DNA of 64,000 nucleotides from Morinoia aosen (taxonomy: Eukaryota; Arthropoda; Malacostraca; Amphipoda; Talitridae). Both the position numbers and the translations under genes were made by a program. Shown piece after piece: positions 561 through 63,175 of this stretch. Below the pieces are notes generated by a model. The model made no database searches and was not told the origin of the DNA. It saw only the letters and a program-made list of their open reading frames with translations. The stretch spans positions 44,431,842 to 44,495,841 of the forward strand of contig CM059569.1 of the NCBI GenBank assembly GCA_030386875.1, written 5' to 3'. The first letter of the stretch is position 1; the number at the start of each line of letters is the position of its first letter.

Positions 561-907
561 CCGTGCACTATCACCACCCCAACTCGCCGCCCCCCCCCAC
601 CCCCACTCACCCCTCCTCACCACCCCCTACTCATCACCCCCACTCACCACACACCGAAGGGCGACCTACCTCTCTTTACCCCCACTCACTCCCATAGAAG
701 GAGGACCTGCCCCTCTTCCCCCCCATTCACCCCCACTCACCACCAGCATTCAATACCACCACCACTCACCACCACCCCCCACACTCATCCCCCACACGCA
801 CTTACCACCGCCCACACTCACCACCTCCACTCACCACCCCCACTCACTACCACCCCCACACTCACCACCCCCCACACTCACCATCCCACTTACCACCGCC
901 CCCACAG
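560..907. repeat. CA/C-rich repeats with decoy copies of exon 1 start
   Basis: Made of CCCCCACTCACCACC-like words forming a long polypyrimidine-like lead-in to the exon 1 acceptor. Two copies of the exon start are embedded, at 653-678 and 693-718; the second keeps an AG followed by AAGGAGGACCTGCCCCTCTT. Confidence 0.75.
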
Positions 908-1111
908 AAGGGGGACCTGCCCCTCTTCACCGCCATCGAGTCCGGCAACTCAGGTCTGGTGAAGGAGCTGCTGTTCCACCACGCCAAGGACCAGGTGCGC
1001 GACAGCAGGACCAAGACCAAGGACACCGCCCTCCATGTCGCCTGCTGGAAGAAGGACACCGAGCTCGTCAGGGTCCTCGTCGACGCTGGCAGCATCGTCG
1101 ATGCCAAGAAT
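908..1111 (+). CDS. nompC: nompC exon 1 of window: two ankyrin repeats
   Basis: Acceptor CCCACAG ends at 907 and donor GTGAGT starts at 1112; the exon begins and ends in phase 0 (68 codons). It encodes an ankyrin repeat starting [18 protein letters not shown] and a second with [20 protein letters not shown]. The phase-0 acceptor means at least one earlier coding exon lies outside the window. Degenerate copies of the exon start lie upstream (653-718), and copies of its tail with donor lie downstream. Confidence 0.9.
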
Positions 1112-4100
1112 GTGAGTACCATCTTCTGGCTCTTTGGGAGTTTTAGGGTTGGTTAGGTTGGGTTAGGTTGGGTTTGGTTAGGTTAGGGTTGGTTAGGTTG
1201 GGTTTGCTTAGGTTAGGTTCATGTTAGTTTAGGTCTATGCTAAAAATGATAGTGCAGCCTTGTGGTTTTTTGGAAATTTTGTTAGGTTGGGTTTGGTTAG
1301 GTTAGGTTTGGTTAGGTTAGGTTTGGTTAGGTTAGGTTTGGTTAGGTTAGGTTTATGTTAGTTTAAGTTGGTGGAAAAAATGGGAGTGCAGCCTTGGGGT
1401 TTTGGAGAATTGTATGTTTGGCTAGGTTAGGCCGATGATAAAAATGTAAGTGCAACCTTGTGGCTCTCCGGGAAGTTTTAAAGTTGGTTAGGTTGGGTTT
1501 GGTTAGGTCGATGCCAAGAATGTGAGTGCAAGCCTTGTGGCTTTTTGTGAATTTTGGGTTTTGGTAGGTATGGTGAGGTTTGGTATTGTTAGTTTAGGTC
1601 AATACAAAAAATGAGAGTGCAGCCTATGGTTTTTGGGAAATTTTAGGATTGGTTTGGGCTGGTTAGGTCGATGTCAAATATGTGGGTGCAGCCTTGTGTT
1701 TTTGGGAAATTTTAGGATTGGCTGGTTTTGGTTAGGTCGATGTCAAATATGTGGGTGCAGCCTTGTGTTTTGGGGAAATTTTAGGATTGGTTGGGTTTGG
1801 TTAGGTCGATGCCAAATATGTGGGTGCAACTTTGTGTTTTTCAGGTGGAATTTTGATTTTGCGCCAACGTGACCTTTCGAGAAGATTTGTGTTTGCTGAG
1901 ATTTCAGGGATGCAGTGGTGTAAACTTATTATTTTTAATGGGTGTCCAGTGTGCTGTTATACAATCCGAAGATTTTTGCGCAACAATCTTGAATGTTAGT
2001 GTAGGATGTTGCTGTATTTATTGTGCTACCGGGATTTCAGTGGTACACATGCCTCTTATTTAGATGTTGTAACCTATATTATAAATATTGCAATGATATG
2101 TATGGAAAAAATAATATAGTAGAAAAAGATTCTAAGAGGAAATAGCATAGAAACACTGGGACAGGTTATACTTTTTTATGCAAAATTTTAGAAAATATTT
2201 ACCTGCCCTTACATGAAAATTGTAGCATAAAGACTTTAAGCCTTACTAATACATACAATGATCCCAATCATGCCTCTGTCCAATGATTAATATTACAATA
2301 ATTGACTATAAAATTATCAGGTTTTAATCACAGAAGTTGGCAAAGAAATGCATTAAGCTTCGTAGCGTAGATACGCACACCGCACCCTGCGCTTCATTTA
2401 CTGAAAGAAATTCAATACAAAAAACAGTCATTTTCTTGAAAAACGAAGCTATGAAAAATACTATCTTTTACCGAATAATTTTGGAAATAATTTATGTTTT
2501 CGTTTATTTAATAAACAACTCAGCGGGCCTCAGCCACATCAATCGCAGAAGAGAAGCGTAAAATGTATCCATTCGTCGCCTCTGAGAAAATGTTTCTTTT
2601 CTTGTGAGGTTTAAATTATTTATAGAATGATTTTGAAATTATTTAACCAGGATTTTTCCAATGAGTCTTGGGGACACTTCACAAAATCGAAAGCAGTAAA
2701 GAAATAAGCATATTGTGGTCACCATGGATGGAAAAGTTCTTTCACTATTCTCAGGGCAAAATTTTTGCGTTAATGTAAAGTAAGTTTTTAGTGATAGATT
2801 AGATAATAAATTTTTATCTGATGACAAAATTTATCTTCACTGCACTGACGCAGAAACTTTTCTGCGAGAAATTGAAAGAACTCTTGCCTTCACGGTGAAC
2901 AAATTATGTTTAGTTTTCGTTGAATCCGCTTTAGGAAGGTGCCTCTCGCCTTTTAATTCAGAAAACTAGGAACTCCTACGAAAAACGTTCATTTTATTAA
3001 AAAAACAAATTCTGAGAAGAATATTTTTCTAAAAATTCGGAAACGAATTTACATATAAGTCTATTTACTACTTTAAATGCCTACATTGGCTCATATTTAG
3101 GCAAACAATTCTCTGCAAATGAGGATAACTATCATCGTCATCGTCTTCATTAGGATTGCATCTGAAAATGATTGAGATTTCTGACCTGCAATGACGGTTT
3201 TGTTGCACCAAGCTAGAGCAGCGCTGTCTCTGATGAAAGCTGCCTTCCTAGAACTAACGATCTACTCACATCTGAAACCTCAGTCTATGATAATACCTCC
3301 CATTAACGAAAGCCAAACCAAGAATACGATCAGAATGAATCCAGTTCTGAAGACTATTTAAGAAAGAAAGATGTCCTACATAGAGGATACTGCATCCAAG
3401 AACGCGAGCAATCTACAAAGAAGGGTTTGACTCGAAACTGACTCTAGCGTCTTTGTCTGACGTGTGAGTGTCAGACCCAAGATGTCAAAGAAGTCAAAGT
3501 CCTGAGAAACTGACACTAGCGTCTTTGTCAGATTGACGTGTGAGTGTCAGACGCAAGATGTCAAAGAAGTCAAAGTCCTGAGAAACTGGCACTAGCGTCT
3601 TTGTCAGATTGACGTGTGAGTGTCAGACGCAAGATGTCAAAGAAGTCAAAGTCCTGAGAAACTGGCACTAGCGTCTTTGTCAGATTGACGTGTGAGTGTC
3701 AGACGCAAGAAGTCAAAGCCCGGAATTCTCACGAAGAGTTCACAGAACAACGCCAAACAAAACTCGCTGTGACTTCCACAACAGGGAGCGACGGCCGCAA
3801 CGTAATGACTTCAACACAAAGAACCAAAAATTCACGAGCGGCGACAGAACTGCCGTGTGTTTGGGCGCAGCTTTGAGAGAGATAGCCTCATATCCTATAT
3901 ACCCAGAATTTGGTGTATTGGGGCTGCATAACGCATGTGGTGTACTGAAGATACATAATTCATCCGAGATCAGGGTGTACAAAGCACCTGCTCGACTCGC
4001 GTACAAAGAGTGCACGTTTTTGCGTGCACTTTTCTTCTTTGTGCCGGATGATCATGAGCATTACGCAGCGTGAGTTAGGAAGGAAGTGCTCTAATTGTCG

Positions 4101-7100: not shown

Positions 7101-10100
7101 AGTAAAAGTAAAACAGTCTGCATAAAATATAAAGTCATATAGCACAGACGGTAAAAGTAAAAAAGTCTGTGTCAAATATAAAGCCCCGTGGTACAGACAG
7201 TAAAGAAAACAGGTCTGTACACTACAGCAAGTCACTTATCACAACAGGTCTGCACAGGACAACAATCTTCCATCAGGTGCGCCACTTCCTCAAATGACCT
7301 CTGATATACCCCCCCTCCCCCTCCTTCTGGGGCACTGTCCCCCCCCTCCTTCTGGGGCACTGTCCCCCCCCCCCCCCCTTATTGTTGTGTCATCCATTAT
7401 TCAATGGCGAACGGCGAATATATTTTGTGTTAGAAATGTTTCAAGAAAATGCTTGAAAAAAATGTTTGATTGAAAATATTTTTCATGAAAATATTTCATG
7501 GAAGAATTTCACAAAATATTCGATAAAAAAAATATTTCACAAAATATTTGATAAAAAATATTTCACAAAAAATATTCAACAAAAGTGTCTTTTTAAATAT
7601 TCATTTTTCCTGTTAAATATTTTCCTGTCATATATTCTAAAAAAATATTCTTGCGCAAAACAACTAGACGAAATCCTGAGTTGGAAAAAAGTCTCAGGCT
7701 TGCGTTCATTATCTAATATATTTTTTATTGCCCTTTAATGTCAGATGAATACAGTACACATTTGATTTACCCCTCATGAATATGCACTTCACACATGAAT
7801 GCAATTTTGATAGTGATAAGTCCTTAACAAATTGGCTTTATCGAGTTGCACATGTTGTGTATGTGTGCTGCCGCTAGCTCATGTGTGTTTGAGGGCACAC
7901 ATGTGTGCTGGCGTCAACATTCCCCACACAACCCCACAGGCGGCGGGGAAGACGCCACTGCACATCGCTGCCGAGGTTGGGGACGATGCAACAGCCAAGT
8001 TTTTCTACAACATCCACGTGAACCCCAACATCATCGACAACCAAGGTGAGATGTGCATCACATCACCACAACCAAGGTGAGATGTGCACCACACCACCAC
8101 AACCGAGGTGAGATGTGCACCACACCACCACAACCAAGGTGAGATGTACATCACATCACCACAACCGAGGTGAGATGTGCACCACACCACCACAACCAAG
8201 GTGAGATGTGCACCACACCACCACAACCAAGGTGAGATGTGCACCACACCACCACAACCAAGGTGAGATGTGCACCACACCACCACAACCAAGGTGAGAT
8301 GTGCACCACACCACCACAACCAAGGTGAGATGTACACCACATCACCACAACCAAGGTGAGATGTGCACCACACCACCACAACCAAGGTGAGATGTGCACC
8401 ACACCACCACAACCAAGGTGAGATGTGCACCACACCACCACAACCAAGGTGAGATGTGCACCACACCACCACAACCAAGGTGAGATGGACACCACACCAC
8501 CACACCCCCACACCACCACAACCAAGGTGAGATGGACACCACACCACCATAACCAAGGTGAGATGTGCACCACATCACCACAACCAAGGTGAGATGGACA
8601 CCACACCACCACAACCCCACACCACCACAACCAAGGTGAGATGGACACCACACTACCACACCCCCACACCACCACAACCAAGGTGAGATGTGCACCACAC
8701 TACCACAACCAAGGTGAGATGGACACCACACCACCACAACCCCACACCACCACAACCAAGGTGAGATGGACACCACACCACCATAACCAAGGTGAGATGT
8801 GCACCACATCACCACAACCAAGGTGAGATGGACACCACACCCCCACACCCCCCCACCACCACAACCAAGGTGAGATGGACACCACACCACCACACCCCCA
8901 CACCACCACAACCAAGGTGAGATGGACACCACACCACCATAACCAAGGTGAGATGTGCACCACATCACCACAACCAAGGTGAGATGGACACCACACCCCC
9001 ACACCCCCACACCACCACAACCAAGGTGAGATGGACACCACACCACCACACCCCCACACCACCACAACCAAGGTGAGATGGACACCACACCCCCACACCC
9101 CCACACCACCACAACCAAGGTGAGATGGACACCACACCCCCACACCCCCACACCACCACAACCAAGGTGAGATGGACACCACACCACCACAACCCCACAC
9201 CACCACAACCAAGGTGAGATGGACACCACACCACCACACCCCCACACCACCACAACCAAGGTGAGATGGACACCACACCCCCACACCCCCACACCACCAC
9301 AACCAAGGTGAGATGGACACCACACCACCACAACCCCACACCACCACAACCAAGGTGAGATGGACACCACACCACCACACCCCCACACCACCACAACCAA
9401 GGTGAGATGTGCACCACATCACCACAACCAAGGTGAGATGGACACCACACCCCCACACCCCCACACCACCACAACCAAGGTGAGATGGACACCACACCAC
9501 CACACCCCCACACCACCACAACCAAGGTGAGATGGACACCACACCACCACAACCAAGGTGAGATGGACACCACACCCCCCCACCCCCACACCACCACAAC
9601 CAAGGTGAGATGTGCACCACACTACCACAACCAAGGTGAGATGGACACCACACCACCACAACCAAGGTGAGATGGACACCACACCCCCACACCCCCACAC
9701 CACCACAACCAAGGTGAGATGGACACCACACCACCACAACCCCACACCACCACAACCAAGGTGAGATGGACACCACACCACCACAACCAAGGTGAGATGG
9801 ACACCACACCCCCACACCCCCACACCACCACAACCAAGGTGAGATGGACACCACACCACCACAACCCCACACCACCACAACCAAGGTGAGATGGACACCA
9901 CACCACCATAACCAAGGTGAGATGTGCACCACATCACCACAACCAAGGTGAGATGGACACCACACCCCCACACCCCCACACCACCACAACCAAGGTGAGA
10001 TGTGCACCACACCACCACAACCCCACACCACCACAACCAAGGTGAGATGGACACCACACCCCCACACCCCCACACCACCACAACCAAGGTGAGATGGACA

Positions 10101-13100
10101 CCACACCCCCACACCCCCACACCACCACAACCAAGGTGAGATGGACACCACACCACCACAACCCCACACCACCACAACCAAGGTGAGATGTGCACCACAC
10201 CACCACAACCCCACACCACCACAACCAAGGTGAGATGTGCACCACATCACCACACCCCCACAACCACGGTGTGGTGCTGCTATAGATAATCACGACCAAC
10301 ACCACAACGTCAATACGCCCAGGGCTGGGATTGCATGACTGGGGAAGCTTTGCAATCTGTGCGAGGTGGGGAGTGTGGGGAGTGTGGGGAGTGGGGGGAG
10401 TGGGGGGAGTGTGGGGAGTGAGGGGAGTGTGGGGAGTGTAGGAAGTGTGGGGAGTGTGGGTAGTGTGGGGAGTGTGGGGAGTGTGGGAGTGTGGGGAGTG
10501 TGGGAAGTGTGGGGAGTGGGGGGAGTGTGGGGAGTGTGGGAGTGTGGGGAGGGTGGGGAGTGTGGGAAGTGTGGGGAGTGTGGGGAGTGTGGGGAGTGTG
10601 GAGAGTGGGGGGAGTGTGGGAGTGTGGGGAGTGTGGGGAGTGTGGGGAGTGTGGGAGTGTGGGGAGTGTGGGGAGTGTGGGGAGTGTGGGGAGTGTGGGG
10701 AGTGTGGGGAGTGTGGGGAGTGTGGGGAGTGTGGGGAGTGTGGGGAGTGTGGAGAGTGTGGGGAGTGTTGGGAGTGTTGGGAGTGTGGGGAGTGTGGGGA
10801 GTGTGGGAGTGTGGGAAGTGTGGGAAGTGTGGGGAGTGTGGGGAGTGGGGGGGAGTGTGGGAAGTGTGGGAAGTGTGGGGAGTGTGGGGAGTGTGGAGAG
10901 TGTGGGGGGCGTGGGGAGGGCGTATAGATTTGTTTAGCATCGATAGAATGTTTTGTAAATAATTCCCTAATGTTCGTGATATTTGATGCCACATTTTCTC
11001 AATATTCAGAAAAATATGTTTCGTACTTTTTGAAGAAATGATTTCATTGTTATTTAGAAAAAGTATTTCATAAATATTCAAATATTTGATTTTTAAACAC
11101 TGTGTGGCTGCTAAGTAATTGACGGCAATTTTATAAGAAGCGACTAAGCTTTCTCTAAATATTATTCACTAGTGTACACGACAAGTCAAAAATGACGGGA
11201 TTCGATAGTTCCTTAAATAAGTCTCCAGATATGGATGGCAAACAAATACAGCATGTCCCACAAAAACCCGAACCGAGTATTTATACCCTTATCAGCAAAA
11301 CCATCATAAGAATACTCGTATCAGCAATACCATCATAAGAATACCCGTATCAGCAATACCATCATAAGGTTACCCGTATCAGCAATACCATTATAAGAAT
11401 ACCCGTATCAGCAATACCATCATAAGAATACCCGTATTAGCAATACCATCATATGAATACCCGTATCAGCAATACCATCATAAGAATACCCGTATCAGCA
11501 ATACAATCAAAAGAATACCCGTATCAGCAATTCCATCACAAGAATTCCCGTATCAGCAATACCATCATAAGAATACCCGTATCAGCAATACCATCATAAG
11601 AATACCCGTATCAGCAATACCATCATAAGAATTCCCGTATCAGCAAAACCATCATAAGAATACCCGTATCAGCAATACCATCATAAGAATACCCGTATCA
11701 GCAATACCATCATAAGAATACCCGTATCAGCAATACCATCAAAAGAATACCCGTATCAGAAATTCCATCACAAGAATTCCCGTATCAGCAATACCATCAT
11801 AAGAATACCCGTATCAGCAATACCATCATAAGAATACCCGTATCAGCAATACCATCATAAGAATACCCGTATCAGCAATTCCATCACAAGAGTTCCCGTA
11901 TCAGCAATACCATCATAAGAATACCCGTATCAGCAAAACCATCATAAGAATACCCGTATCAGCAATACCATCATAAGAATACCCGTATCAGCATTACCAT
12001 CATAAGAATACCCGTATCAGCAATACCATCATAAGAATACCCGTATCAGCAATACCATCATAAGAATACCCGTATCAGCATTACCATCATAAGAATACCC
12101 GTATCAGCAATACCATCATAAGAATACCCGTATCAGCAATACCATCAAAAGAATACCCGTATCAGAAATACCATCATAAGAATACCCGTATCAGCAATAC
12201 CATCATAAGAATACCCGTATCAGCAATACCATCAAAAGAATACCCGGTCAGCAATACCATCATAAGAATACCCGTATCAGCAATACCATCATATGAATAC
12301 CCGTATCAGCAATACCATCATAAGGTTACCCGTATCAGCAATACCATCATAAGAATACCCATATCAGCAATACCATCAAAAGAATACCCGTATCAGCAAT
12401 ACCATCATAAGAATACCCGTATCAGCAATACCATCATAAGAATACCCATATCAGCAATACCATCATAAGAATACCCGTATCAGCAACACCATCATAAGAA
12501 TACCCGTATCAGCAATACCATCACAAGGTTACCCGGATCAGCAATACCATCATAAGAATACCCGTATCAGCAATACCATCATAAGAATACCCGTATCGGC
12601 AATACCATCATAAGAATACCCGTATCAGCAATACCATCAAATGAATACCCGTATCAGCAATACCATCATAAGAATACCCGTATCAGCAATACCATCATAA
12701 GGTTACCCGTATCAGCAATACCATCATAAGAATACCCGTATCAGCAATACCATCATAAGAATACCCGTATCGGCAATACCATCATAAGAATACCCGTATC
12801 AGCAATACCATCAAATGAATACCCGTATCAGCAATACCATCATAAGAATACCCGTATCAGCAATACCATCATAAGGTTACCCGTATCAGCAATACCATCA
12901 TAAGAATACCCGTATCAGCAATACCATCATAAGAATACCCGTATCAGCAATACCATCATAATTTTGTTTGGAATCAAATGCTTATGGTATCATACGAAGG
13001 TACTACTGATACGGGAAAACAAATAACATGTTCGAGTTTTTGTGGGACATGCTGTATATCCATCCTTAAAGTACTCGCGGATAAAATGTTTTCGTACTTG

Positions 13101-16100
13101 TGCACTGGTGAACTTCGTATCACAGATACGGTCATTGAGCCATCCTTATGAGCGCCACAGAGAGAGGCAACCAAGCAATTTAAAGTGTTCTATGAGTTCC
13201 CTATTGTAATAACATAAGAGAAATAACGCACAAAACATATATTTTATTATTTATAAATTTTATGGAACACCTGGTGTATTTTCACCCATATAAATGAAAG
13301 TGATGATGATAATGATGCTGATAGTTGTGGAATACTTGATAAATACTCTTATTTTAATGCCTTTAGTCAGAAAGAGCGGTATCCCTTCTACAGGTATGAG
13401 GGTGAGGGATCAGAGGGATGAGGGAGCAGAGGGATGAGGGAGCAGAGGGATGAGGGAAGGAACACTTGACCTCCATTGAAACAGTGGACGTGACCTCATT
13501 ATGTCCATCTGACCTCACGCACCGCCACACAATAGGACTCAACTACCCTGATTCGTGACGAGTTTTCTATGCCCCCCAGCACGCCAACATGCAAAAAGAT
13601 CGGCGTCAAGACGATTCCTTTTGTTCAAATTTCCGACTCGTCTGACTCTAAATTGCTACGATGCTGACTTTTTTTGTCTCTAGAATTCACGTGTTCAGCC
13701 AGCGACAATTTGCTTGTTGAAGTTAGCCGAACAAATGCGACACAATGCAGGACCTAACCCAGATGTTTCTTCGTTCGGGAGGTTGTTTTTGTTGAGTTTT
13801 TTTTTGTTTGGTCACAATGGAGGAGTGGGAGACGGGAAATGTAGTTTTAATGTTGAGAGCTTAGCATTTTTAGTTGCAATACTTAGATAATTCGCAATGG
13901 ACCAGGGAGGGACGGGAAATTTAGCTTGGCTATGGAGTGTTTTAGCATTTTTTGAAGTAAAAATTTGAAAATCGTGTTTGCTTGTAAGTTTGGTTGCCAC
14001 CGTCGACACGCTGGTCCCAGTAATGCCATAGGTCAAAACTCAGTGCCCTTTGTTTAAAAAATACAGGGCACTTGTGGGTTATCTGTCACCTCTTGTTTAG
14101 GGGTAAAAGTGCTTTTAGGGGTAAAAGCATTTTTTGGGGGGGAAAAAGTGAAAAATGAAATGTAATTTTTTGTGGATATTGAATTAATGTTCTGGTCAGT
14201 ATGAATGAATTTTTCATGTGAGATGGTATCTTTGTTGATTTATATTTATTTCTGATAAAATTTATCTACCTTTTATTATTTATAATAAATCTTTGGGACT
14301 TTCCTCTTCAGTTCTTGGAAAGTCCCAGAGATTCATTTGGCCTGAAACAAAACAAAAAATAGAAATAATGCAAATTAATAATAATTCAATTAAGCTAACC
14401 TAACCTAAACTAACCTGAACATCAAAAGCAAACCAAAAATTAACAGTGGTGACAGATAACCCACAAGTACCAAATACAGTGAATGAGGTAGATACGTCAC
14501 TTTGGAAACGATTCCTAAAGGTAAAAATGGTGTTGATTTTTGAATGTATCATGGATACATGATGCCAAAAGGCTAGGACCAGCCAGGAGCGAGGATTTTT
14601 TTGTGTTGAAATCATGTGTTGCCTTCATCTGATGATTCCTGCAGAAGTTGAAACCCAAGTCATAATACGAACTTCATTTTTAACTGCGGTGGAGGCGCAG
14701 TAGAAGAAACAAGGTAGGGTCAAACCAGTCTTTTTTTCGTCGACCGTGTGGCAATGCTGACGTCTCGGCAACAGACCAATAGCAGCGCGCATATTGCATC
14801 TGGCAACACTGCTAGCCTCAGACTGGCACCGCTATTGGCCTAACGACATGTCGCAATGGTGACGTCATGAAGTAAATTTGAAATAAAGCATTTCTATTGG
14901 CTAGCCGAACAAGAGGAAGTGTATTTTCACCCATAGAAACGACCCTACCTTGTTTCCTCTACCGTGCTGCTAAATGTATGTGATTTACGTAGATGATCGC
15001 AACGTGTAGCCAGGATACAAAAGAAGAGAGAAAGGGGCTAAGAATTTGAAGAAAAAATTGTGATGATTTGGTAGTGGTACGAGTATGGTGTAGCTTGGAT
15101 ACGAGCACCCCATACATATACCTGTATGAAACTGGAGGATCGTGTGTACAGAAGAACCACACATTTGTGAGGGACTTGAGTATCGCATTCGTTCATTTCC
15201 CTGCCCTACATCCCCATTATACCCTCATATTCCCCTTCCAGTATCCCTCATTTACCCTGTATCCAGTATCATTACCTGCTCCTTTAGCCCTCTTCCAGTA
15301 CCCCCCCCTCCCTTTCACTACCCTCACCCCATTACCCCAGTAACCCCATCCTTTCACTACCCTTACCCACCCCTCCCACCACCTCACCCCTGACCCCCCA
15401 CCCCCCCACCGCACCCCAGACCGGACCCCGCTGCACACGGCGGCAGAACACGGCAACACGGCCATCGTGGAGCTGCTGTCGGACAAGTTCAAGGCTTCCG
15501 TCATGGAGCGCACCAAGGACGGCTCTACCCTCGCCCACATCGCCTCCCTGCACGGCCACCCCGACACCGTGCTGAGCTTCCTTAAAAAGGGTGTGTTGTG
15601 TTGTGTAGTGTGTAGTGAGTGTTGCAGAGTGTGTGTGTAGTATGTGTAGTGTGTTGTGTTGTGAGGTATATTGATGTGTTGTGTGTGTTGTGTGGTGCGT
15701 GTTGTGTGTGTCGTGTGGGTTGTGTGGTGTGTGTGGTATGTGTTGTGCGTGCTGTGAGTGTCATGTGAGCTGTGTATGCCGTGTGTCTTGGCGTGTGCTG
15801 TATACAATACGGAATTTATTTGCTGACTGTGTGTAGCACCGTGTGTAGTGTCGTGTTTGAGTTGTGTGAGCGTGACTGTGTGGGCTGTGTGAGCCTAATA
15901 ACATAGCCTTAAAGTAAATATTTAGGCAAAAAAATTAATATCCGTGAGTAAAGATATTCACTCTAAAGGTCGGCGCTCATTGACATCTGTGCCTATGAAT
16001 TTTTGTACGGCATCCTCACAAGTCTGTAAGTTTACAGAAAATGAATGAAATGAAATCAGTTTATTTCCAATAAAGTTTAAACATGAAATGTTGACAACAT

Positions 16101-43100: not shown

Positions 43101-46100
43101 CGAAATATTTCGCCTACTGCAGGAGGGATGGACACCATTGCACTACTTAAAATATTTCCTAACTTCATGAAATATTTCACCTGGGGCATGAGGGTTGGAC
43201 TCTACTCAAAATATTTTCTAGCCACGAAACATTTGGCGTGCTGCAGGAGGGCTGGACGCCGCTGCACTACTCAGCCAAGATGGGTCACATCAGGGTGGTG
43301 CGGCTGCTGACAGAGGCGGGGGCGCGCACAAAGGACAAGACCAACGAGGGCAAGATCCCCATCTGCTACGCCGCCGCCTACGACCACGTCGAGGTCTTCT
43401 CCTACCTCATACAGAAGGATCTCGACTCCTATGAGCTCCTCAGGGACAAGAAGGTGTGCTGGTGGCGGGTGTTTGCTAGTGTTGGGTGGGTTACTCGCTA
43501 GTGCTTACTAGTTGCTAGTGTTAACAATAGTGTCGGGTGGGTGAGTGGCTAGGTGTTTGTTAGTGGGTAGCGTGGCTTCGGTGCTGAGGGAGTTGGTGGC
43601 TAGTGTTAACTTGTGTTGGGTGGGTTAGTGGCTAGTGTTTATTAGTGGCTAGTGTTGCTACAGTGATAGGTTGGTTGGTGGCTAGTGTTAACTTGTGGTT
43701 GGTGGGTTGGTGGCTAGTATTTATTAGCAACCAGTGGTACTACAGTGATGGGTAGGTTAGGTGCTAGTGTTTGTGCTACCACTTAGTGGGTTTGTGGCTA
43801 GTGTTTGCTACTATGCTGGGTGAGCTGGTAACTAGTGTTTTCAGTGGCTGGGAAGTAACATCTGGGAATCGTTGGGGTAGTATCGTTGAGTGTAACCGTA
43901 AAAATTTTGTACTGGTTCTCACTACTTGAAAACTGGCATCGGATAAATACGCGAAAATATGGAACATTAAATCGAGATCTAAGATTTTGTAGCTAATAAT
44001 TGAAATGATGATAGCTGAAAGTAAAGCGATAATGATGAAGTATTACCGCACCACAACCTTCACTAAAATTTACGAGGATGAAGAAATATTACTACAACTT
44101 CATTTCATTAGGCGATGATAATAAACTATTACTACAGCCTTTATTAAAACACACGATAGCGCGGAAATAATACCATAACTTCATCAAAATGTGCGATAAT
44201 AATGAATTATTAATTCAACCATCGTCAAAACTTACGATCTCGTGGAAATATCAACAAAACTTCATCGCAACTCCCGATAATATAAAAATATTAAAAGATT
44301 CCCACAACCCCATTACAAATCGCGAAAATATTAAAATATCCCCACAATCTCACGACAATATAAAAATATAACATGCCCCACAACTCGGTGATGACCGCAA
44401 CGCGTTTCAGTTCGTGCACGACCTGACGGTGATGTCGCGCAAGTATGCCCACCAGCCGATGCAGGAGTACGTGCTGCTCTCCCCAGCACCGCCTGACATC
44501 GCGCACAAGCTCTCGCACACGCTGCTGCATCTGTCCGAGACGGTGGGTGTGTGGGGTGTGGGGTGTGTGTGTGGGTGTGTGTGTTGGTGTGTGTGTTGGT
44601 GGGATGTGTGTGGGGTGTGTGGTGGGGGGGTGTGGTGGTGGGGGTGGTGATGATCGATGGTGATGATGATGATTGATGATGATGGCGATGATGATTAATG
44701 GTGATGATGATTGATAATGATGATGATGATGATGATGATAATGATTGATGATGATGGTGGTGATCATTAATGGGGATGATGATGATTGATGGTGATGATG
44801 ATGGTGATGATAGTGAAGCTACATTTGACACATCGGGAGGGTTTGTGTTTTATAATACTGATGGTGATGATGGTGTACTGTGATGCGTCCAAAATAATGA
44901 AAGCAGAGCGATATACTTTGATGATGAGAATGATGCAATGTTTGGGAGACATTTCCTTTATCATTTTGTGTACAATTATCGTTTCGAATTGATTGTTTAT
45001 TCCATTCTATTGCCATTATTTATAATAAATGGTCAGGACAGGAACATAACGGTTGAAATTCACGCAAAAAACTTTATGAAAAATAAGAAAAACGTTCAAA
45101 ACTTATCAGAAAAAATATTATTATGCAACATCCGCTTTGCACTAGCGCTGTTAAATTGTGAGACGTGGTTTTTGTGGAATTTCTTTTTCGTTATTCTGAC
45201 TTCCTGTGTACCATACAAATGCAAGCGACTTCCTGTGTACCATACAAATGCAAGCGACTCCCAGTGTACCATACAAATGCAAGCGACTTCCTGCGTACCA
45301 TACAAATGCAAGCGACTCCCTGTGTACCATACAAATGCAAGCGACTTCCTGTGTACCATACAAATGCAAGCGACTTCCTGCGTACCATACAAATGCAAGC
45401 GACTTCCTGTGTACCATACAAATGCAAGCGACTTCCTGTGTACCATACAAATGCAAGCGACTTCCTGTGTACCATACAAATGCAAGCGACTTCCTGTGTA
45501 CCATACAAATGCAAGCGACTTCCTGTGTACCATACAAATGCAAGCGACTTCCTGTGTACCATACAAATGCAAGCGACTTCCTGTGTACCATACAAATGCA
45601 AGCGACTTCCTGTGTACCATACAAATGCAAGCGACTCCCTGTGTACCATACAAATGCAAGCGACTTCCTGTGTACCATACAAATGCAAGCGACTTCCTGT
45701 GTACCATACAAATGCAAGCGACTTCCTGTGTACCATACAAATGCAAGCGACTTCCTGTGTACCATACAAATGCAAGCGACTCCCAGTGTACCATACAAAT
45801 GCAAGCGACTTCCTGCGTACCATACAAATGCAAGCGACTCCCTGTGTACCATACAAATGCAAGCGACTTCCTGTGTACCATACAAATGCAAGCGACTTCC
45901 TGCGTACCATACAAATGCAAGCGACTTCCTGTGTACCATACAAATGCAAGCGACTTCCTGTGTACCATACAAATGCAAGCGACTTCCTGTGTACCATACA
46001 AATGCAAGCGACTTCCTGTGTACCATACAAATGCAAGCGACTTCCTGTGTACCATACAAATGCAAGCGACTTCCTGTGTACCATACAAATGCAAGCGACT

Positions 46101-49100: not shown

Positions 49101-52100
49101 ACAAATGCAAGCGACTTCCTGTGTACCATACAAATGCAAGCGACTTCCTGTGTACCATACAAATGCAAGCGACTTCCTGTGTACCATACAAATGCAAGCG
49201 ACTTCCTGTGTACCATACAAATGCAAGCGACTTCCTGTGTACCATACAAATGCAAGCGACTTCCTGTGTACCATACAAATGCAAGCGACTTCCTGCGTAC
49301 CATACAAATGCAAGCGACTTCCTGTGTACCATACAAATGCAAGCGACTCCCTGTGTACCATACAAATGCAAGCGACTTCCTGTGTACCATACAAATGCAA
49401 GCGACTCCCTGTGTACCATACAAATGCAAGCGACTTCCTGTGTACCATACAAATGCAAGCGACTTCCTGTGTACCATACAAATGCAAGCGACTCCCTGTG
49501 TACCATACAAATGCAAGCGACTTCCTGTGTACCATACAAATGCAAGCGACTTCCTGTGTACCATACAAATGCAAGCGACTCCCTGTGTACCATACAAATG
49601 CAAGCGACTTCCTGTGTACCATACAAATGCAAGCGACTTCCTGTGTACCATACAAATGCAAGCGACTCCCTGTGTACCATACAAATGCAAGCGACTTCCT
49701 GTGTACCATACAAATGCAAGCGACTTCCTGTGTACCATACAAATGCAAGCGACTCCCTGTGTACCATACAAATGCAAGCGACTTCCTGTGTACCATACAA
49801 ATGCAAGCGACTCCCTGTGTACCATACAAATGCAAGCGACTTCCTGTGTACCATACAAATGCAAGCGACTTCCTGTGTACCATACAAATGCAAGCGACTC
49901 CCTGTGTACCATACAAATGCAAGCGACTTCCTGTGTACCATACAAATGCAAGCGACTTCCTGTGTACCATACAAATGCAAGCGACTTCCTGTGTACCATA
50001 CAAATGCAAGCGACTCCCTGTGTACCATACAAATGCAAGCGACTCCCTGTGTACCATACAAATGCAAGCGACTTCCTGTGTACCATACAAATGCAAGCGA
50101 CTTCCTGTGTACCATACAAATGCAAGCGACTCCCTGTGTACCATACAAATGCAAGCGACTTCCTGTGTACCATACAAATGCAAGCGACTTCCTGTGTACC
50201 ATACAAATGCAAGCGACTTCATGTGTACCATACAAATGCAAGCGACTCCCTGTGTACCATACAAATGCAAGCGACTCCCTGTGTACCATACAAATGCAAG
50301 CGACTTCCTGTGTACCATACAAATGCAAGCGACTTCCTGTGTACCATACAAATGCAAGCGACTCCCTGTGTACCATACAAATGCAAGCGACTCCCTGTGT
50401 ACCATACAAATGCAAGCGACTTCCAGTGTACCATACAAATGCAAGCGACTCCCTGTGTACCATACAAATGCAAGCGACTTCCTGTGTACCATACAAATGC
50501 AAGCGACTTCCTGTGTACCGTACAAATGCAAGCGACTCCCTGTGTACCATACAAATGCAAGCGACTTCCTGTGTACCATACAAATGCAAGCGACTTCCTG
50601 TGTACCATACAAATGCAAGCGACTTCCTGTGTACCATACAAATGCAAGCGACTTCCTGTGTACCATACAAATGCAAGCGACTTCCTGTGTACCATACAAA
50701 TGCAAGCGACTTCCTGTGTACCATACAAATGCAAGCGACTCCCTGTGTACCATTCAAATGCAAGCGACTTCCTGTGTACCATACAAATGCAAGCGACTTC
50801 CTGTGTACCATACAAATGCAAGCGACTTCCTGTGTACCATACAAATGCAAGCGACTTCCTGTGTACCATACAAATGCAAGCGACTTCCTGTGTACCATAC
50901 AAATGCAAGCGACTTCCTGTGTACCATACAAATGCAAGCGACTTCCTGTGTACCATACAAATGCAAGCGACTTCCTGTGTACCATACAAATGCAAGCGAC
51001 TTCCTGTGTACCATACAAATGCAAGCGACTTCCTGTGTACCATACAAATGCAAGCGACTCCCTGTGTACCATACAAATGCAAGCGACTTCCTGTGTACCA
51101 TACAAATGCAAGCGACTTCCTGTGTACCATACAAATGCAAGCGACTTCCTGTGTACCATACAAATGCAAGCGACTTCCTGTGTACCATACAAATGCAAGC
51201 GACTTCCTGTGTACCATACAAATGCAAGCGACTCCCTGTGTACCATACAAATGCAAGCGACTTCCTGTGTACCATACAAATGCAAGCGACTTCCTGTGTA
51301 CCATACAAATGCAAGCGACTTCCTGCGTACCATACAAATGCAAGCGACTTCCTGTGTACCATACAAATGCAAGCGACTTCCTGTGTACCATACAAATGCA
51401 AGCGACTCCCTGTGTACCATACAAATGCAAGCGAACAAATAACACCTCAACAATATAACTCCAGCTGCGGTGCAACACAAGCACCACAACAACGCAACTG
51501 TGGTGCAACACAAGCACCACAACAACGCAACTGTGGTGCAACACTAGCACCACAACAACATAGCTACCTTACAACACAAGCACCACAACAACACAGCTGT
51601 AGTACAACAAAAGCGCCCCAACAACACAGCTACAGCTGCAGCACAACAAAAGCAGCAATATCTCGTCACCAACATCCCATTGACAAAAACAATTACAACA
51701 ACATACAAATAACCGTGCTGGCGAAGGAGAGCCAGAAAGACTTGATCGAGTCACAATAACGTCTATAAAGGCAACACAATCACATTAACGTCAAAAAATC
51801 AGCATCATCACAATAAATGTACAACACTATCACATTCACGTCACTAATTGCACCACCATTAACGAAAACAATTACAACAACGTACAACTAACCGTTCAGG
51901 AGAAGGAGAGCCAGAAGGACCTGATCGAGGCGTCAGTGTTCGCAGAGGAGCTCGCCACGGAGCTGGTGGCCATCACGTCCTCCTCCTTCAGCCCCGGCGT
52001 GCTGCTGCGAGCTCTCGACGGCCGCGGTATTGCGCTGCTCGACTCGCTCATCGAGCACGAGCAAAAGATGGTCAGGCTCGCTCGACAGCCGCTGGCTACT

Positions 52101-55100
52101 ATAGCCGGGTGTTGCGGGGGTGCAATAGAGTAGGAGAGTGTATCAGGGTTTGTTGAAATGGGATGTTTGCTTGGGTTGAAGTAAGGGAAAGTATTGAGCT
52201 TTATTGAAATGGGGCATTTGGCTTGGCTGAAGTCAAGGAGTATATCAGGCTTTTCTGGAATATTTGGCTAAACTAAGAGAGTACATTAGGCTATAGTGAA
52301 ATGAAAGAAGAATTATCTTAACTGAAATAAGAGAGCGTATTAAGTGAGGTTGAAGTATGGTAGCATTTCGAGCTTTACTGCTAAAAGAGGGTTTATTCGG
52401 CCTGACTGAAATAAGGAAGTCTATCAGGCTTCACGGAAATGATAGGGTATAGTTGGTTTCCCTGAAATAATATCAACAGGCTATTTTATGAACATAAAGT
52501 AAAACAGTTATGACTACTGTAAGACACTGCAAGATTCGTTTTTTTGTCTTTGATTTTATGTTGTTTATATAAACTTTAAGGTAAATTGTACTCCAATTTC
52601 ACCTTTGACGGTAAAGCATTTTCTTCTGAAGCGTTTGTAGTTAAAACTACGCAATTTATTTGGGAACTGAAGAAAGAGCTGCGGTAATGACACTGTGGTG
52701 GTCAGAAATGGTTTACCCTGCAGAATTGATGCTTACTTCTATTTGTAGCGATACTTTCACAAATGATTTATGATTTCTACCATCATTTTAACACATATAA
52801 ATATATTTCGAAAGAGAGAATTAAGGACTCCTGTTCAAAATATAACGAAGCACTCCGTGTTTCTAATGTTAGGCTTCAGTTTCAGCGATTTTTTTTTAAA
52901 CCCCTTTATCAATTTATATGCTACCCTTCTTGTTCCTCCGGTTTCACCGTGGAAGAAATATGAAAACAGTAAGAAATGGATTTTACGTTAAAGAGAAATA
53001 CTAATCCCTTACAAATGGTTAATTATGCAGATTGAAGTTGAAAGGTAAATCTAGTCATTAGTAGCAGTTGGTACAGCAAAGTAAAGTTGATGAGTAAAAT
53101 TCGTCCTAAGTAAAATAGATGACAAAAACTTTCAAAAGTTATGCTGAGAAGAAATGTTAGATGCTAGTAAAACTGTAACAAAAACATATTAAAGTAACAT
53201 TGAAAAGAAGTACCAGTTCTTAGTAAAACCTAACAACCAAAACCTAATAAAGTAACATTGAAACGAAATACTAGTTCCAATTAAGAACTAGCAGCACTAA
53301 CTTTGTAACGCAACATCAAAAACAAGAACTTTTGATTCCCGTGCAGGTGATCGCACACCCGAGCGTGCAGCGCTACCTCAATGACGTGTGGATGGGGAGC
53401 CTCAAGTGGCCTGCGTGGAAGATGGCGGCAGTCTTCCTGGTGTGTCTCATTATACCACCCGTCTGGCTGTTCTTCAGGTGTGTCTCATTATACCACCCGT
53501 CTGGCAGGTGTGTCTGGATCTTTTTTAGGTGTGTCTGCCAGTGTTCATAGCTTGTGATATTTTTTCATGATTCCTCCATATTTTAAGTCATTTTATCCTT
53601 GTACGAACTCTTTACAGCTCTGTTCAAAAATTTGTCAGTTCTGTCTACTTCCTCAGTCTATTTCCCCTGTCTACTTTCCCTCACTCTGTTTGCGCGCCCT
53701 AATACCATTTTTTTGGATATAGGTGAGTTTTTCTTTTTTTGCATTGTTTCTTTTGTTTCTTTTTTCTTTAACGCCCTGAACTTTTTTACCCTCCCCATTA
53801 TAAACTAATTTTCTAAATAAACGGTTTTCTTTCTTTTTTCCTTTCTTAACGGCGTGAATTCTGTTATTCCTTCCCAACAGCCTGCCGCTGCCGCACAAGT
53901 ACTACCGCATACCGTTCACAAAGTTCCTGTCGTACCTGGTGTCCCACTGCTACATGCTCCTCCTCATGATACTCATGGTCGTCACGCCGCTCAGCCCCAT
54001 CTGGGAGCTCACCGACCTCATGCCAAGATGGTGGGTCCATTGAACATTTATTTTTTTCGAACTTGGAAATTTAACGGAATGAGAATTAAAATAGTTTTAG
54101 TTTTTAAATCTAACATGATGAGAATTAAAACGGTCGTTTCACCTCTATCGATTTAGTTTGATCGTTCAAATTGATCATACTGCACATTGACACGTTATTT
54201 ACTTATTTTTGAACTTTAAAATTCATCTCTCTGCGAATTAAAACTGTCATTTTGCCTTCACCAATTCATTTTTTAATATAAAAAAAAATTCATTCGTAGT
54301 CATTTTACCTCTAGTAATTTATTTTGAATTAAAAAAGTTTTCTTTTTCTTGAAAGTTATCTTGTTGCCCTTTTAATGATTAAGAAATTAGAGTTGCTGAT
54401 GTTCCATATATTGTGCACCATTTAATTTTATATAAATTTGAAGTAATGATTGGAGGCATATTCTACCGCGTGTCTGTTAAGACTCCCAGTAAATCTTGTG
54501 AAAAGTTGCGCTGTATCAACAAGGTTGAAAAATTGCGCCACTCCATCACCTTGAAAGGATGTCTATGTTCATGAAAAAAAGATTTAATGTTAAATAAAAT
54601 ATTAAATGGTTATTTATCAGTTTTTGCTTCATATTTAATTATTTTGAACCACGATTCTTCATAAAAAAACCTATTCTGGACTTCCATGCCGATTTAAACG
54701 CGCTACTCATCTAACATTCACGTACTATTCGATTATACGCATGGCTGATGCTATTTAGGTCATCAAATTTGTAAATTTTTAAAACATAAATTAAATATGT
54801 TAAGTATCGCATAGGTTACCAAATTTTTAAATTTTCTCTTAGATAATCTCTTGATAACAGGCCGCCTGAAAGTAACTTAAATACTGGTTTCATTTACCGT
54901 AGACTTATTAGATGCTCAGAAGTAACTTAACACTGGTTTTGTTTACCGTAGACATTTTACCCTCTTCCATATTCTCATTCTCTCAATTTTGACGGTGACA
55001 TTCTCAAAGATATGTCACCCAACACAGTTTTTTTATCTGCATACCTGTAACCATGGTTGCAGGCACGAGTGGATGTTGCTGGCATGGTTGAGCGGCAACC

Positions 55101-58100
55101 TGGTTGCTGAACTAACCAGTCCTGGTGATCGCACTGGACTTGGTTGGATAAAAGTCTTCGTGTTGATGTTCGGTGGCATGGGCGTGCTGACGCACGTGTT
55201 TGGGTTCCTTTATTACGGACACCAGGGCCCTCTGCAGGAGATACTTTACGTGAGGTAATAACTGGCAGGAGATACTTTACCTGAGGTAATGACTGGCAGG
55301 AGATACTTTACGTGAGGTAATGACTGGCTGGAGATACTTTACGTGAGGTAATGAATAGCTGGAGATACTTTACGTGGGGTAATGACTGGCAGGAGATACT
55401 TTACTAGAGGTAATGACTGGCAGGGGATACTTTACTTGAGGTAATGACTGGCAGGAGATACTTTGTGTAGGTAATGACTGGCAGGAGATACTTTACTTTC
55501 GGTAATGACTGGCAGGAGATACTTTACTTTCGGTAATGACTGGCAGGAGATACTTTACTTGAGGTAATGACTGGCAGGAGATACTTTGTGTAGGTAATGA
55601 CTGGCAGGAGATACTTTACTTTCGGTAATGACTGGCAGGAGATACTTTACTTTCGGTAATGACTGGCAGGAGATACTTTACTTTCGGTAATGACTGGCAG
55701 GAGATACTTTGTGTAGGTAATGACTGAAGAGAGTTCATAGTTCTAATAGCGGAAATATAAATAAAATTTCAGGGTTCAAATGCATGTGGTTATAGAAAGT
55801 CTTATTAATATTATACTCCTGCGGTAAATTTAGAGCTATTTATGCCATATTACATGTACTATGTAAAATACAGATACAGAGACATCTTTGCTAAATATTA
55901 ATACGATATTATGAACAGTTATGGTTGCAGAGTCTGAACGTCTGAAGACATAATGAAGATCAAAAGCTTACCTACACACAATTGAATAATATGCTATAAA
56001 ATTTTGAAGCTTTTTGGGTGGTGGTCTAAAATCAAATCAATAACTTTTCGAAAACTAGCTCAAGTTTTTCGTGGAACAAGTAATCAACTCACGGTGAGGA
56101 TAATTGTATTATGATAATTGCAACCCAAATTTTTGAAGTAATCAGAATTAATTCAGTATTCAATTGAATAAGGCTCCAGAACGATGAAAACCAAGCATTA
56201 AAATAAACAGATAATGCGATTGAAAGTAGACCTAAGAAACTTCTCGTAACTTTTTTTTAAGTAAATTAAGGTAACTGCCTAACGAATTAAGTAACTGTTC
56301 ATTCATTATGAGAAAATTATGTTTTCTAATTAAAATATCTCAAATTCCTGCTATATACTCTCAGTAAATATGACTTCTATGACATTGCATCTCAATTAAT
56401 ATTGCCGTTCTGAAAACGTAACTGCTTAGAGTAAAAACCAGCGACCCTAAAGCGCTTATAGGAACGTTAAATTTCCTGTCCAACGCTGAATATCCAGTTC
56501 TCGCACGCTTTTCTCTTTTTCTGTCTATCAACGCTGTCCTTCTGTCCACCAACGCTGTCCTTCTGTCCACCAAGACTTTTTTGTAGCTTTTTTCCCAGTG
56601 CTATTCCTTTCCTGTCCTCCAATGGCGCTAATCATTCAACGGATGCTGTCCCCCTGTGTACCAACTGTCTTCCTGTCCACGAACTGTCCTGTCCTCCAAC
56701 TTTCCTCCTGTCGGCCAATTGTTTTTTTCTATCATCTAGTTTCTCAATTATTCTTCTGTTCCCCTATTATCCTTCTGTCCAACTGTCGTCCTGTTCAACT
56801 GTCCTCCAACTGTCCTGCCACTAACTGCCCTCCTGCTCCCCTACTATCCTTTTGTCCAATTGTCGTCCCGTCCAGCTGTCCTCCTGTTCACCTGTACTGT
56901 CCAACTATCCTCTTGTCCAACTGTCCACCAACAGTCCTTCTGTCCAACTATCCACCAACTGCCCTGTCCACCACCTGTCCACCAACTGCCCTGTCCACCA
57001 CCTGTCCACCAACCCCCCAGGAATGTGCTGATAGGCTGTGGGCTGCTGCTGGCCACGGTGCAGCTGCTGGACTTCCTCTCGTTCCACAACCTCTTCGGTC
57101 CGTGGGCGGTGATCATCGGCAAGCTCATGGTCGACTTGGGCCGATTTTTGGTCATCCTGGCCATCTTCATGTTCGGGTTCACGATGTACCTCTCGGCCAT
57201 CTACAACCCCATCAGACCCATCTACACCGGGCGCAACTCGACCCCTGTTGTGGGGTCCGGCTACCCTCCTTTTGGTTCGTTGGGGGTGTCTGTCTGGTGA
57301 GGTTTGGGGTATCTGGTGAAGTTGGGGTATCTGGTGAGGTTGGGGTGTCTGATGGGGTCATGATTGATTGGGGTATCTGGTGAGGTCATGATTGGTTGGG
57401 GTGTATGATTGGTTGGGGAATATGATGTCATGATCAATTTTTTGGCTTCCAGAATCACCGCTTTACGAAGAAGTATTTTGTGTCTAATTTTGCATCTATT
57501 ATTCGTGGATTACAGGATCAATTTAAACATTTAAAGTCTTTATGAGAAAATTTATTTCTAAATTATTCTAAGGTATTGAATATATGAGGACGATAAATAA
57601 TTATATTACAATGTAAAACAATCAAATATTAAAAAACTGAGAGAGGACATATATGTATGTCCATTGGGACTCATGGGAACACAGATTTAAAGAGGACATA
57701 TATCTCCAGTTAGACTTATGGTAACATGGAATGAAAATAAACATTCATAAATAGCCAGTTGAACTTTTGAGAGGAGCAAGGTCAGAAAAAAGTGGAATGT
57801 TAAGTACAGTAAGACCAGAAAATGTTAATTATTATGTATTTCACGCAGAGGCTCCTGTGCAAGACCCGGTCTCGACAGCAGAGCTACTCTTCTTTTCCTT
57901 GTTCGGTCTGGTGGAGCCAGACTACATGCCGCCCTTCTACAGTCACCCCTTCTGGGCTAAGGCCCTAATGAAGGTGCGTCTCTTGTCCCTTCCGGGCCAA
58001 GACCCTTATGAAGGTGCGTCTCCTGCTTCCTTCTGGGCCAAAGCTCTAATGAAGGTGCGTCTTTTCCCCTTCTGGGCCAAGGCCCTCTTAAAGATTACTC

Positions 58101-61254: not shown

Positions 61255-62420
61255 GCATTCTTACAATCTACGTACTGTGGTGCTCTCACGGTTGGTATCA
61301 TCGTTCCCTGCTACGCTGGCCCGCCAAAGATGGTGATGCTACCATGAGTAGCAGTATCATCTGTTGGTATCCCTGCTAAGCTGGTACACTAAAAATAGTG
61401 ATACTACTGAGAGTAGCAGCACCATCTGTTGGTATCACTGCTACGCTGGTACACTGAAAATAGTGATGCTACTGAGAGTAGCAGCACCATCTGTTGGTAT
61501 CACTGCTACGCTGGTACACTAAAAATAGTGATGCTACTGAGAGTAGCAGCACCATCTGTAGGTATCACTGCTACGCTGGTACACTAAAAATAGTGAAACT
61601 ACTGAAAGTAGCAGCACCATCTGTTGGTATCACTGCTACGCTGGTACACTAAAAATAGTGATACTACTGAAAGTAGCAGCACCATCTGTTGGGATCACTG
61701 CTACGCTGGTACACTAAAAATAGTGATGCTACTGAGAGTAGCAGCACCATCTGTTGGTATCACTGCTACGATGGTACACTAAAAATAGTGATACTACTGA
61801 AAGTAGCAGCACCATCTGTTGGTATCACTGCTACGCTGGTACACTAAAAATAGTGATGCTACTGAGAGTAGCAGCACCATCTGTAGGTATCACTGCTACG
61901 CTGGTACACTAAAAATAGTGATGCTACTGAGAGTAGCAGCACCATCTGTAGGTATCACTGCTACGCTGGTACACTAAAAATAGTGATACTACTGAAAGTA
62001 GCAGCACCATCTGTAGGTATCCCTGCTATGCTGGTACACTAAATATAATGATTTCAATAAGAGCAGCAGCGCCATCTTTTGGTATCACTGCTACTCTGAC
62101 GCCGAAATTATACCACCATGAGTAACAGCGCCATCTTTTGGTACCGTTGCGACACCAGCACACTAAAAATAGTGATGCTACTGAGAGTAGCAGCACCATC
62201 TGTAGGTATCACTGCTACGCTGGTACACTAAAAATAGTGATACTACTGAAAGTAGCAGCACCATCTGTAGGTATCACTGCTATGCTGGTACACTAAATAT
62301 AATGATTTCAATAAGAGCAGCAGCGCCATCTTTTGGTATCACTGCTACTCTGACGCCGAAATTATACCACCATGAGTAACAGCGCCATCTTTTGGTACCG
62401 TTGCGACACCAGCACACCCA
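61255..62420. repeat. 65 bp satellite, ~17 units
   Basis: GTAGCAGCACCATCTGTTGG plus TATCACTGCTACGCTGGTAC and a CTAAAAATAGTGAT stretch. A ~255 bp higher-order block with GCGCCATCTTTTGGTATC is duplicated (about 61990-62160 and 62245-62415). Confidence 0.92.
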
Positions 62421-62849: not shown

Positions 62850-63175
62850 CACGGCGGCCTTAGTGTCCACGTAACTAGCCGTGACGGAGCTAGCCATTGA
62901 GTCGCTAGCCGTGATGTAACTAGCCATGAAGTTACTGACCGTGATATAACTAGCCATAGCGTAATTACCAGTGACGTAACTAACCGTGGAGTTAATAGCC
63001 GTGGCGTAACTACCAGTGATTTAAATAGCCATGTGTACAGTAACTAGTTATGGAGTAACTAGCCCTGACGTAGTTAGCCATAGCATAGCTAGCAGTAACG
63101 TAACTAGCCATGGAGTTACTAGCCATAGCTTAAATACCAGTGAGGTAACTAGCCATGGTGTAACTAGCCGTGCCT
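62850..63175. repeat. GTAACTAGCCATGG-type repeats
   Basis: About 20 degenerate 15-18 bp units such as TAACTAGCCGTGACG. Confidence 0.85.

Follow-up and report, generated by a model that had tools for sequence, protein, structure and literature searches.

The window analysed here is a 64,000-nucleotide (nt) stretch of contig CM059569.1 from the amphipod Morinoia aosen, and its + strand carries the gene nompC, whose introns contain arrays of tandem repeats, many of them made of copies of an adjoining exon edge with its splice site. The joined translated exons match Drosophila NOMPC (best PDB match 5vkq_A, E 7e-237; the second exon set, covering the C-terminal half, matches at E 2.1e-116). The eight best protein matches come from malacostracan crustaceans (65–68% identity); their abbreviated names point to a penaeid, Procambarus clarkii, Eriocheir, Cherax, Scylla, Armadillidium vulgare, Macrobrachium and Petrolisthes cinctipes. 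The window protein is sister to Armadillidium (support 98/97, long branches on both) in a tree of 14 rows that included a single isopod, which makes a peracarid host probable. Spliced alignment of three malacostracan orthologues (P0001, P0002 and P0006) gave identical edges for 27 internal introns, from the donor at 1111 to the acceptor at 60408. The acceptor of exon 1 differs by orthologue (908 for P0001, as in our first gene model, and 698 for P0002, whereas the P0006 match starts at 919), and position 698 is one of the upstream copies of the exon 1 acceptor region. The P0006 alignment also adds doubtful introns past 60565. Exons are numbered with 908-1111 as exon 1; a candidate first exon at 441-505 was spurious and was dropped. 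The repeat-coverage test and the array list from Tandem Repeats Finder (TRF) used earlier edges (20598, 57249, 57851 and 60383, with the acceptor of the last-but-one exon at 59786), and the refined edges (20610, 57274, 57849 and 60408) were used for the array-end, array-placement, decoy, BLAST (Basic Local Alignment Search Tool), orthologue and edge-copy tests. A tRNA scan and an Rfam scan of the window returned no matches.

Copies of exon edges were scored by aligning 40 exonic plus 12 intronic nt of each edge to the adjoining 300 nt of its own intron, and to the equivalent part of the 26 other introns as a control (702 mismatched edge/intron pairs per side). Ten of the 27 donors (8045, 18803, 22011, 25307, 35955, 39303, 42010, 53477, 55254 and 57973) and six of the 27 acceptors (22982, 25107, 40085, 43247, 51900 and 58516) score higher in their own intron than all 702 controls. 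At the 99th percentile of the controls, where 0.27 edges are expected, there are 13 donors (15590, 17580 and 44542 being the additional ones) and the same six acceptors. Acceptor 908, which lies outside the 27-intron set, has two upstream copies and scores 52, as compared to at most 16 in other introns. The preliminary description, which had reported splice-edge repeats at about 12 donors and 7 acceptors, is thus confirmed with 10–13 donors and 7 acceptors (the six and 908), and two of its further claims are borne out as well: copy number runs from one extra copy (exons 6 and 21) to tens (exons 2 and 13), and the arrays arose separately, with copies about 26 to 230 nt from the exon edge and with acceptor edges scoring no higher than 27 in other introns (as much as 79 in their own) and donor edges no higher than 25 (as much as 83 in their own).

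All copies are in direct orientation. Intronic copies per donor (those retaining the donor GT in brackets) number 56 (56) at exon 2, 60 (59) at exon 13, 15 (13) at exon 12, 12 (12) at exon 23, 4 (4) at exon 14, 3 (3) at exon 17, 2 (2) at each of exons 9 and 25, and 1 (1) at each of exons 6 and 21; the acceptor AG is retained in 8 of 11 counted copies. Counted copies are those within about 30% mismatch, and lost splice sites may be under-counted in these figures. The count for exon 13 includes at least one copy past the end of the TRF array, and the counted copy of exon 21 has 9 mismatches in 30; apart from that copy, 24 nt of the exon end are found again without a change at offset 38. When the 28 exons are searched for in the window by BLAST (E up to 0.05), 10 of them match their adjoining intron, no more than 12 nt from the exon edge; apart from ankyrin pairs between exons, the one further match is a 21-nt minus-strand match of exon 7 (E 0.006). 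Twelve of the 14 edge alignments are 74–91% identical, and the exon 12 donor copies are 94–100% identical to the exon edge. Because a duplication that falls within an exon adds sequence to that exon alone, finding intronic copies of exon edges only is a matter of anatomy and no evidence for a hotspot.

For donor edges, the direction of copying can be read from the orthologues. In each of the ten duplicated donors, the copy next to the exon can be aligned with eight orthologues (exon 6 least well), which makes the exon the source and the intronic units its copies. At these donors the exonic copy appears to be ancestral, in agreement with the earlier proposal that it alone was kept unchanged. 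Compared with interior copies, the first copy is slightly more diverged at exons 2 (where segmentation is poor), 5 and 23, and less diverged at exons 12 and 13; the exon 17 array is too short for this comparison.

Repeats are common throughout these introns. Using 24-nt segments and counting a near copy as at least 18 matches within 400 nt (27 donors and 28 acceptors, including 908), we found a near copy for 42.8% of the intron segments (37.5% have a copy to the right) and for 5.0% of the exon segments. Coverage by repeats is not raised at the junctions (7–10 of 27 donors and 5–7 of 28 acceptors, against the 37.5% of intron segments), and with no excess in coverage the analysis turned to the ends of arrays. 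As the exon body is hardly repeated, the only part of an array that can contain a junction is its end copy. Of all intron segments 5.3% are left end copies, and of those more than 300 nt from junctions 2.8%. By comparison, 6–10 of the 27 donors are left end copies (p 1.2e-3 to 6e-7 versus all introns), and 2–6 of 27 acceptors are end copies (p 0.31 to 1.3e-3), over 15 settings (three thresholds by five exon overlaps) that are not mutually independent.

The positions of array starts were compared with those of the same TRF arrays (score at least 50) placed at random within the same introns in 20,000 simulations. The first array starts within 80 nt of the donor in 21 of the 27 introns versus 7.5 expected, a number that none of the 20,000 simulations reaches; raising the minimum score to 80 leaves 21 such introns, and raising it to 100 leaves 20 (again 0 of 20,000 simulations each). 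Start offsets range from 54 nt inside the exon (-54) to 73 nt inside the intron (+73). On the acceptor side, arrays are found at 12 of 27 introns versus 7.6 expected (score 50, p 0.024). When the 70 arrays are instead rotated circularly over the gene, with exons allowed as landing sites, the null is 4.3 at donors (maximum 12, observed 21) and 4.3 at acceptors (maximum 11, observed 12). As controls, array ends fall in the donor zone in 0 of 27 introns and array starts in the acceptor zone in 4 of 27. Among the six introns without a near-donor array, three have arrays starting at +100, +252 and +164, and three (donors 20610, 41373 and 54030) have no array of sufficient score. Of the 21 donor arrays, nine are at donors from the set of ten whose exon copies are clear.

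For decoys, we took 120 GT sites more than 300 nt from junctions with at least 7 of 9 matches to the donor consensus. Decoys are left array ends in 1–3% of cases, similar to background, as compared to 26–44% of true donors depending on the offset. About 54% of the decoys lie within arrays, and 3 of the 63 outside arrays are left ends; 7 of the 27 true donors score below 7 on the same consensus. Seeding of arrays by the motif was considered and rejected, as donor-like GT sites away from junctions have no excess of array ends, and it is the authentic exon end, not the GT motif, that marks the site of an array.

We favor the explanation (at a probability of roughly 0.6) that local tandem duplication has recurred preferentially at authentic exon-intron edges, with the exonic copy kept by coding selection and the rest spliced out. 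Short stretches of the edge, mostly on the 5' splice site side, would be directly duplicated in tandem, and the duplicated edges would then expand within the intron by slippage or unequal exchange. A duplication across a donor would leave the original exon and donor intact, with the exon-proximal copy staying in use and preserved by purifying selection; extra copies with duplicate AG/GT would be removed with the intron, making the event close to neutral. From the sequence we infer that splicing would use the first donor, and that the arrays would reflect a mutational bias tied to authentic exon ends (through chromatin, transcription or composition where exon meets intron) rather than selection or differential survival. 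More tentatively, and with the odds in our view against it, authentic 5' splice sites in this lineage could be germline hotspots of tandem duplication through transcription, splicing-linked pausing or chromatin rather than the GT motif, in which case most introns genome-wide would grow outward from their donors. If the pattern holds beyond one gene, it would mean that a mutation process at the DNA level is linked to the authentic splice site, which is normally read only in RNA; it would also provide a measurable route to intron lengthening and cryptic splice sites, and a natural test of how the spliceosome chooses among dozens of identical donors.

Several points, in addition to the unraised junction coverage, weigh against this explanation. 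The statistics come from one gene, which was selected for its remarkable appearance. Out of the 21 donor arrays, 12 contain no exon sequence (nine) or a borderline amount (three: 15590, 17580 and 44542), which means that the arrays are not seeded by the junction alone. The preliminary description had inferred that some property of exon ends promotes duplication; within this gene exon ends are preferred, but the hot zone is wider than the junction and lies mainly on the donor side. The acceptor excess weakens with array score (9 introns, p 0.08, at score 80 and 8, p 0.12, at score 100), and at threshold 20 the acceptor end-copy test gives 2–5 of 27 (p 0.31 to 0.005). Three of the six acceptor copies are non-adjacent, with 64–138 nt of other sequence intervening, and are not strictly tandem now. 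The edge copies of exons 2, 9, 10, 13, 15 and 21 are not detected by BLAST, and the evidence for them is edge scoring or copy counts.

The best rival is a bias in survival, improbable in our assessment though the one to be taken most seriously: arrays would form evenly, those next to exons would persist (transposon insertions or large deletions that reach the exon being purged), and those in mid-intron would be broken up. The introns are long and repeat-rich, as this rival expects, and end copies are rarer far from junctions (the 2.8% versus 5.3% given above). On the other hand, the donor excess is also seen in the 20 introns no longer than 1300 nt (14 introns, null 6.1; all 7 of the longer introns, null 1.5) and declines over one to two hundred nt, and some arrays look young, such as the exon 12 donor copies. 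An unlikely reading is that of an ordinary repeat-rich genome, in which about 40% of the introns lie in arrays, some arrays touch edges, and an edge copy is the geometric consequence; the proportion of intron segments repeated nearby and the junction coverage agree with it, whereas the frequency of left end copies at donors does not, and both the rotation and the within-intron nulls are rejected for donors.

A selected function, in which near-donor arrays would enhance splicing or provide reserve donors (G/T-rich tracts or extra U1 sites), seems to us a little less likely still. Almost every counted copy retains the donor GT, and G exceeds C in the first 150 nt of 20 of the 27 introns (pooled skew about +0.3) but in the last 150 nt of only 6 of 27. 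At exons 2 and 13, however, GT is not visibly better conserved than the neighboring positions, which fits young or homogenized arrays over selection. Of 72 copy spacings (the first 16 in each array), only 14 are divisible by three, including eight at exon 12, and since 58 of 72 are not, most distal donors would shift the frame. In addition, the edges have no match to other introns, and several donors with arrays are weak (GTACTT, GTTTGT).

The composition of the 27 introns was considered in its own right. Intron starts are skewed to G over C and T over A, with a GC skew still at +0.16 at 150–400 nt, and intron ends have C over G. Over their first 150 nt, the 21 introns that have a donor array average a G-over-C skew of +0.33, and 16 of them are positive; for the six that lack one the values are -0.11, +0.82, +0.38, +0.29, -0.11 and +0.02, three of which are clearly positive, and the skew is therefore not merely an effect of the arrays. 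Skew as the cause of the arrays was tried and could not be demonstrated.

Birth of the introns by AGGT tandem duplication (the Rogers model), with the arrays as remnants, is very unlikely. This intron-gain model, as described in passages of PMC4974935 that include a potato RdRp case, shares with nompC a local tandem duplication carrying splice signals, and many of our units carry AG|GT. The model predicts that both ends of an intron resemble one exonic segment, whereas BLAST (E up to 0.05) finds copies of the adjoining exon only, of the upstream exon on the donor side and of the downstream exon on the acceptor side. The preliminary description had invoked this model, but the copies sit in existing introns and no new intron is shown. 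Least probable of all is an assembly artefact from stuttered or misjoined long reads: very long near-identical arrays (up to 215 copies of 29 nt) are hard to assemble, but edge copies that are mostly 74–91% identical, several of them low-copy, are unlikely to be invented by an assembly.

Recurrent duplication at exon edges has a precedent in lancelets, and the suggestion in the preliminary description that the phenomenon looked new does not hold for its kind. Passages of PMC3087553 describe tandem repeats spanning exon-intron boundaries in lancelet Adh3, named mirages, and report them in lancelet globins; mirages are also cited for lancelet TnC, and compared with PGBD5 repeats, in a part of PMC3902484. 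According to the same passages on the globins BflGb6 and BflGb9 (PMC3087553), regular splicing is undisturbed as judged by reverse-transcription polymerase chain reaction (RT-PCR), AG/GT is present in many but not all copies, copy number differs between haplotypes, and the mechanism is called unclear; the authors suggest a general phenomenon in cephalochordates, and the boundary copy of BflGb6 is reported there to be excluded from homogenization. As far as those passages describe mirages, the likeness to nompC lies in a direct tandem unit across the exon-intron boundary (here ten donors and six acceptors of the 27 introns, with acceptor 908 in addition), in that either intron end may be duplicated, in that many copies keep AG/GT while the authentic end copy belongs to the gene, and in a copy length that depends on the locus (10-160 bp in lancelets, offsets of about 26–230 nt in nompC). 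With three features clearly matched, the nompC repeats are, judged by sequence, minisatellites of the mirage type and not new in kind. They differ in the arthropod host, in 17 boundaries within one gene, arrays at 21 of 27 donors and up to 60 copies, and in the measured bias to the donor side; RT-PCR and haplotype length data are available for lancelets, whereas nompC is known from one sequence and from protein conservation. The phenomenon reported in lancelets is thereby extended to an arthropod.

Introner-like elements are families of related sequences that form splice-site-associated repeats in many introns. The nompC arrays resemble them in being splice-site-associated repeats in many introns, and differ in that their edges have no match to other introns. 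Such elements are named in a list in a section of PMC4974935. Among the matches listed in our search of open-access full-text literature there was no crustacean case of such repeats, which does not prove absence, and likewise no gene with most introns starting in such arrays, no measured donor bias and no arthropod case. The portion of the Parhyale genome paper examined (PMC5111886) treats repeats and intron sizes and has no such junction repeats in its text. Table 1 lists the features found at the nompC splice sites.

Table 1. Repeat features at nompC splice sites (positions in the window; splice-site positions in brackets after the exon).
Position	Strand	Feature	Support
572..935	+	Exon 1 acceptor (908), exon-start copies at -251 and -210, AG kept in 1 of 2	TRF array 572-906; BLAST; score 52
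1143..1403	+	Array +32 nt past exon 1 donor (1111), units resembling TTAGG, without clear exon sequence	TRF
8037..10267	+	Exon 2 donor (8045), TRF array with 31-nt unit ACAACCAAG|GTGAGATG..., 56 intronic copies, GT in 56 of 56	
15591..15790	+	GT-rich array from exon 3 donor (15590), borderline edge copy, score 24	TRF
16613..16756	+	Array +25 nt past exon 4 donor (16588), no exon sequence	TRF
17580..18176	+	21-nt array x28 from exon 5 donor (17580), borderline edge copy, score 23	TRF
18749..18943	+	Exon 6 donor (18803), 97-nt unit including 55 exonic nt, one extra copy	TRF
21554..21830	+	Two adjoining arrays from +32 nt past exon 8 donor (21522), no exon sequence	TRF
22000..22297	+	Exon 9 donor (22011), TRF array, diverged copies of exon end + GTGAGCAC, 2 counted, GT kept, score 28	
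22673..22994	+	Exon 10 acceptor (22982), duplicate 230 nt upstream that retains AG, 138 nt intervening	
23842..24037	+	Array +23 nt past exon 11 donor (23819), no exon sequence	TRF
24852..25141	+	Exon 12 acceptor (25107), ~150-nt unit duplicated, including acceptor and 35 exonic nt	TRF, BLAST
25279..25933	+	Exon 12 donor (25307), 40/42-nt unit, 29 exonic nt, 15 intronic copies, GT in 13	TRF, BLAST
35951..38194	+	Exon 13 donor (35955), 38-nt unit, 5 exonic nt, 60 intronic copies, GT in 59	TRF
39285..39615	+	Exon 14 donor (39303), diverged copies of CACTACGGCCAGACAG|GTGGGT, 4 counted, 4 with GT	TRF
40014..40094	+	Exon 15 acceptor (40085), TRF array, a single copy that retains AG 42 nt upstream; weakest of the acceptors, score 28	
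41976..42222	+	Exon 17 donor (42010), ~41-nt unit, 35 exonic nt, 3 intronic copies, GT in 3	TRF
43086..43271	+	Exon 18 acceptor (43247), copy ~125 nt upstream, AG kept, 64 nt intervening	
43514..43771	+	Array +61 nt past exon 18 donor (43453), no exon sequence	TRF
44542..44649	+	GT-rich array from exon 19 donor (44542), borderline edge copy, score 22	TRF
51677..51929	+	Exon 20 acceptor (51900), duplicate 179 nt upstream that has lost AG, 105 nt intervening	BLAST
52136..52253	+	Array +66 nt past exon 20 donor (52070), no exon sequence	TRF
53444..53505	+	Exon 21 donor (53477), 24 nt of exon end at intron offset 38, 24/24 identical	
55234..55726	+	Exon 23 donor (55254), 31-nt unit, 21 exonic nt, 12 intronic copies, GT in 12	TRF, BLAST
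57293..57426	+	Array +19 nt past exon 24 donor (57274), no exon sequence	TRF
57947..58086	+	Exon 25 donor (57973), 40-nt unit, 27 exonic nt, 2 intronic copies with GT	TRF
58375..58553	+	Exon 26 acceptor (58516), 71-nt unit including acceptor and ~40 exonic nt	TRF, BLAST
58751..58997	+	Array +10 nt past exon 26 donor (58741), no exon sequence	TRF
60002..60367	+	TRF array +73 nt past exon 27 donor (59929), ends 40 nt before acceptor 60408, no exon sequence	

Other repeats in the window include a 29-nt unit repeated 215 times at 98% identity in intron 19 (45198-51434), which is open in all three forward frames and yields spurious open reading frames (ORFs) of more than 2000 codons (e.g. 44884-51756) that a gene caller might report. 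The units of the array that follows the exon 1 donor resemble TTAGG, the arthropod telomere motif. In intron 4 (17281-17420), an inverted repeat ATGCATG...CATGCAT was seen by eye, and a similar stretch lies at about 38154-38336 in intron 13; the translated ORFs of the two share 11 residues, and they are possibly a small dispersed element. Two ORFs in the 10-kb intron 12 (27853-28059 and 33889-34059) share SPRWEK..LSH and are possibly copies of one dispersed repeat. Downstream of nompC there are large arrays at 61308-62352, 62871-63169 and 63493-63809 (65-, 60- and 15-nt units, respectively), and the high density of arrays is therefore not confined to introns.
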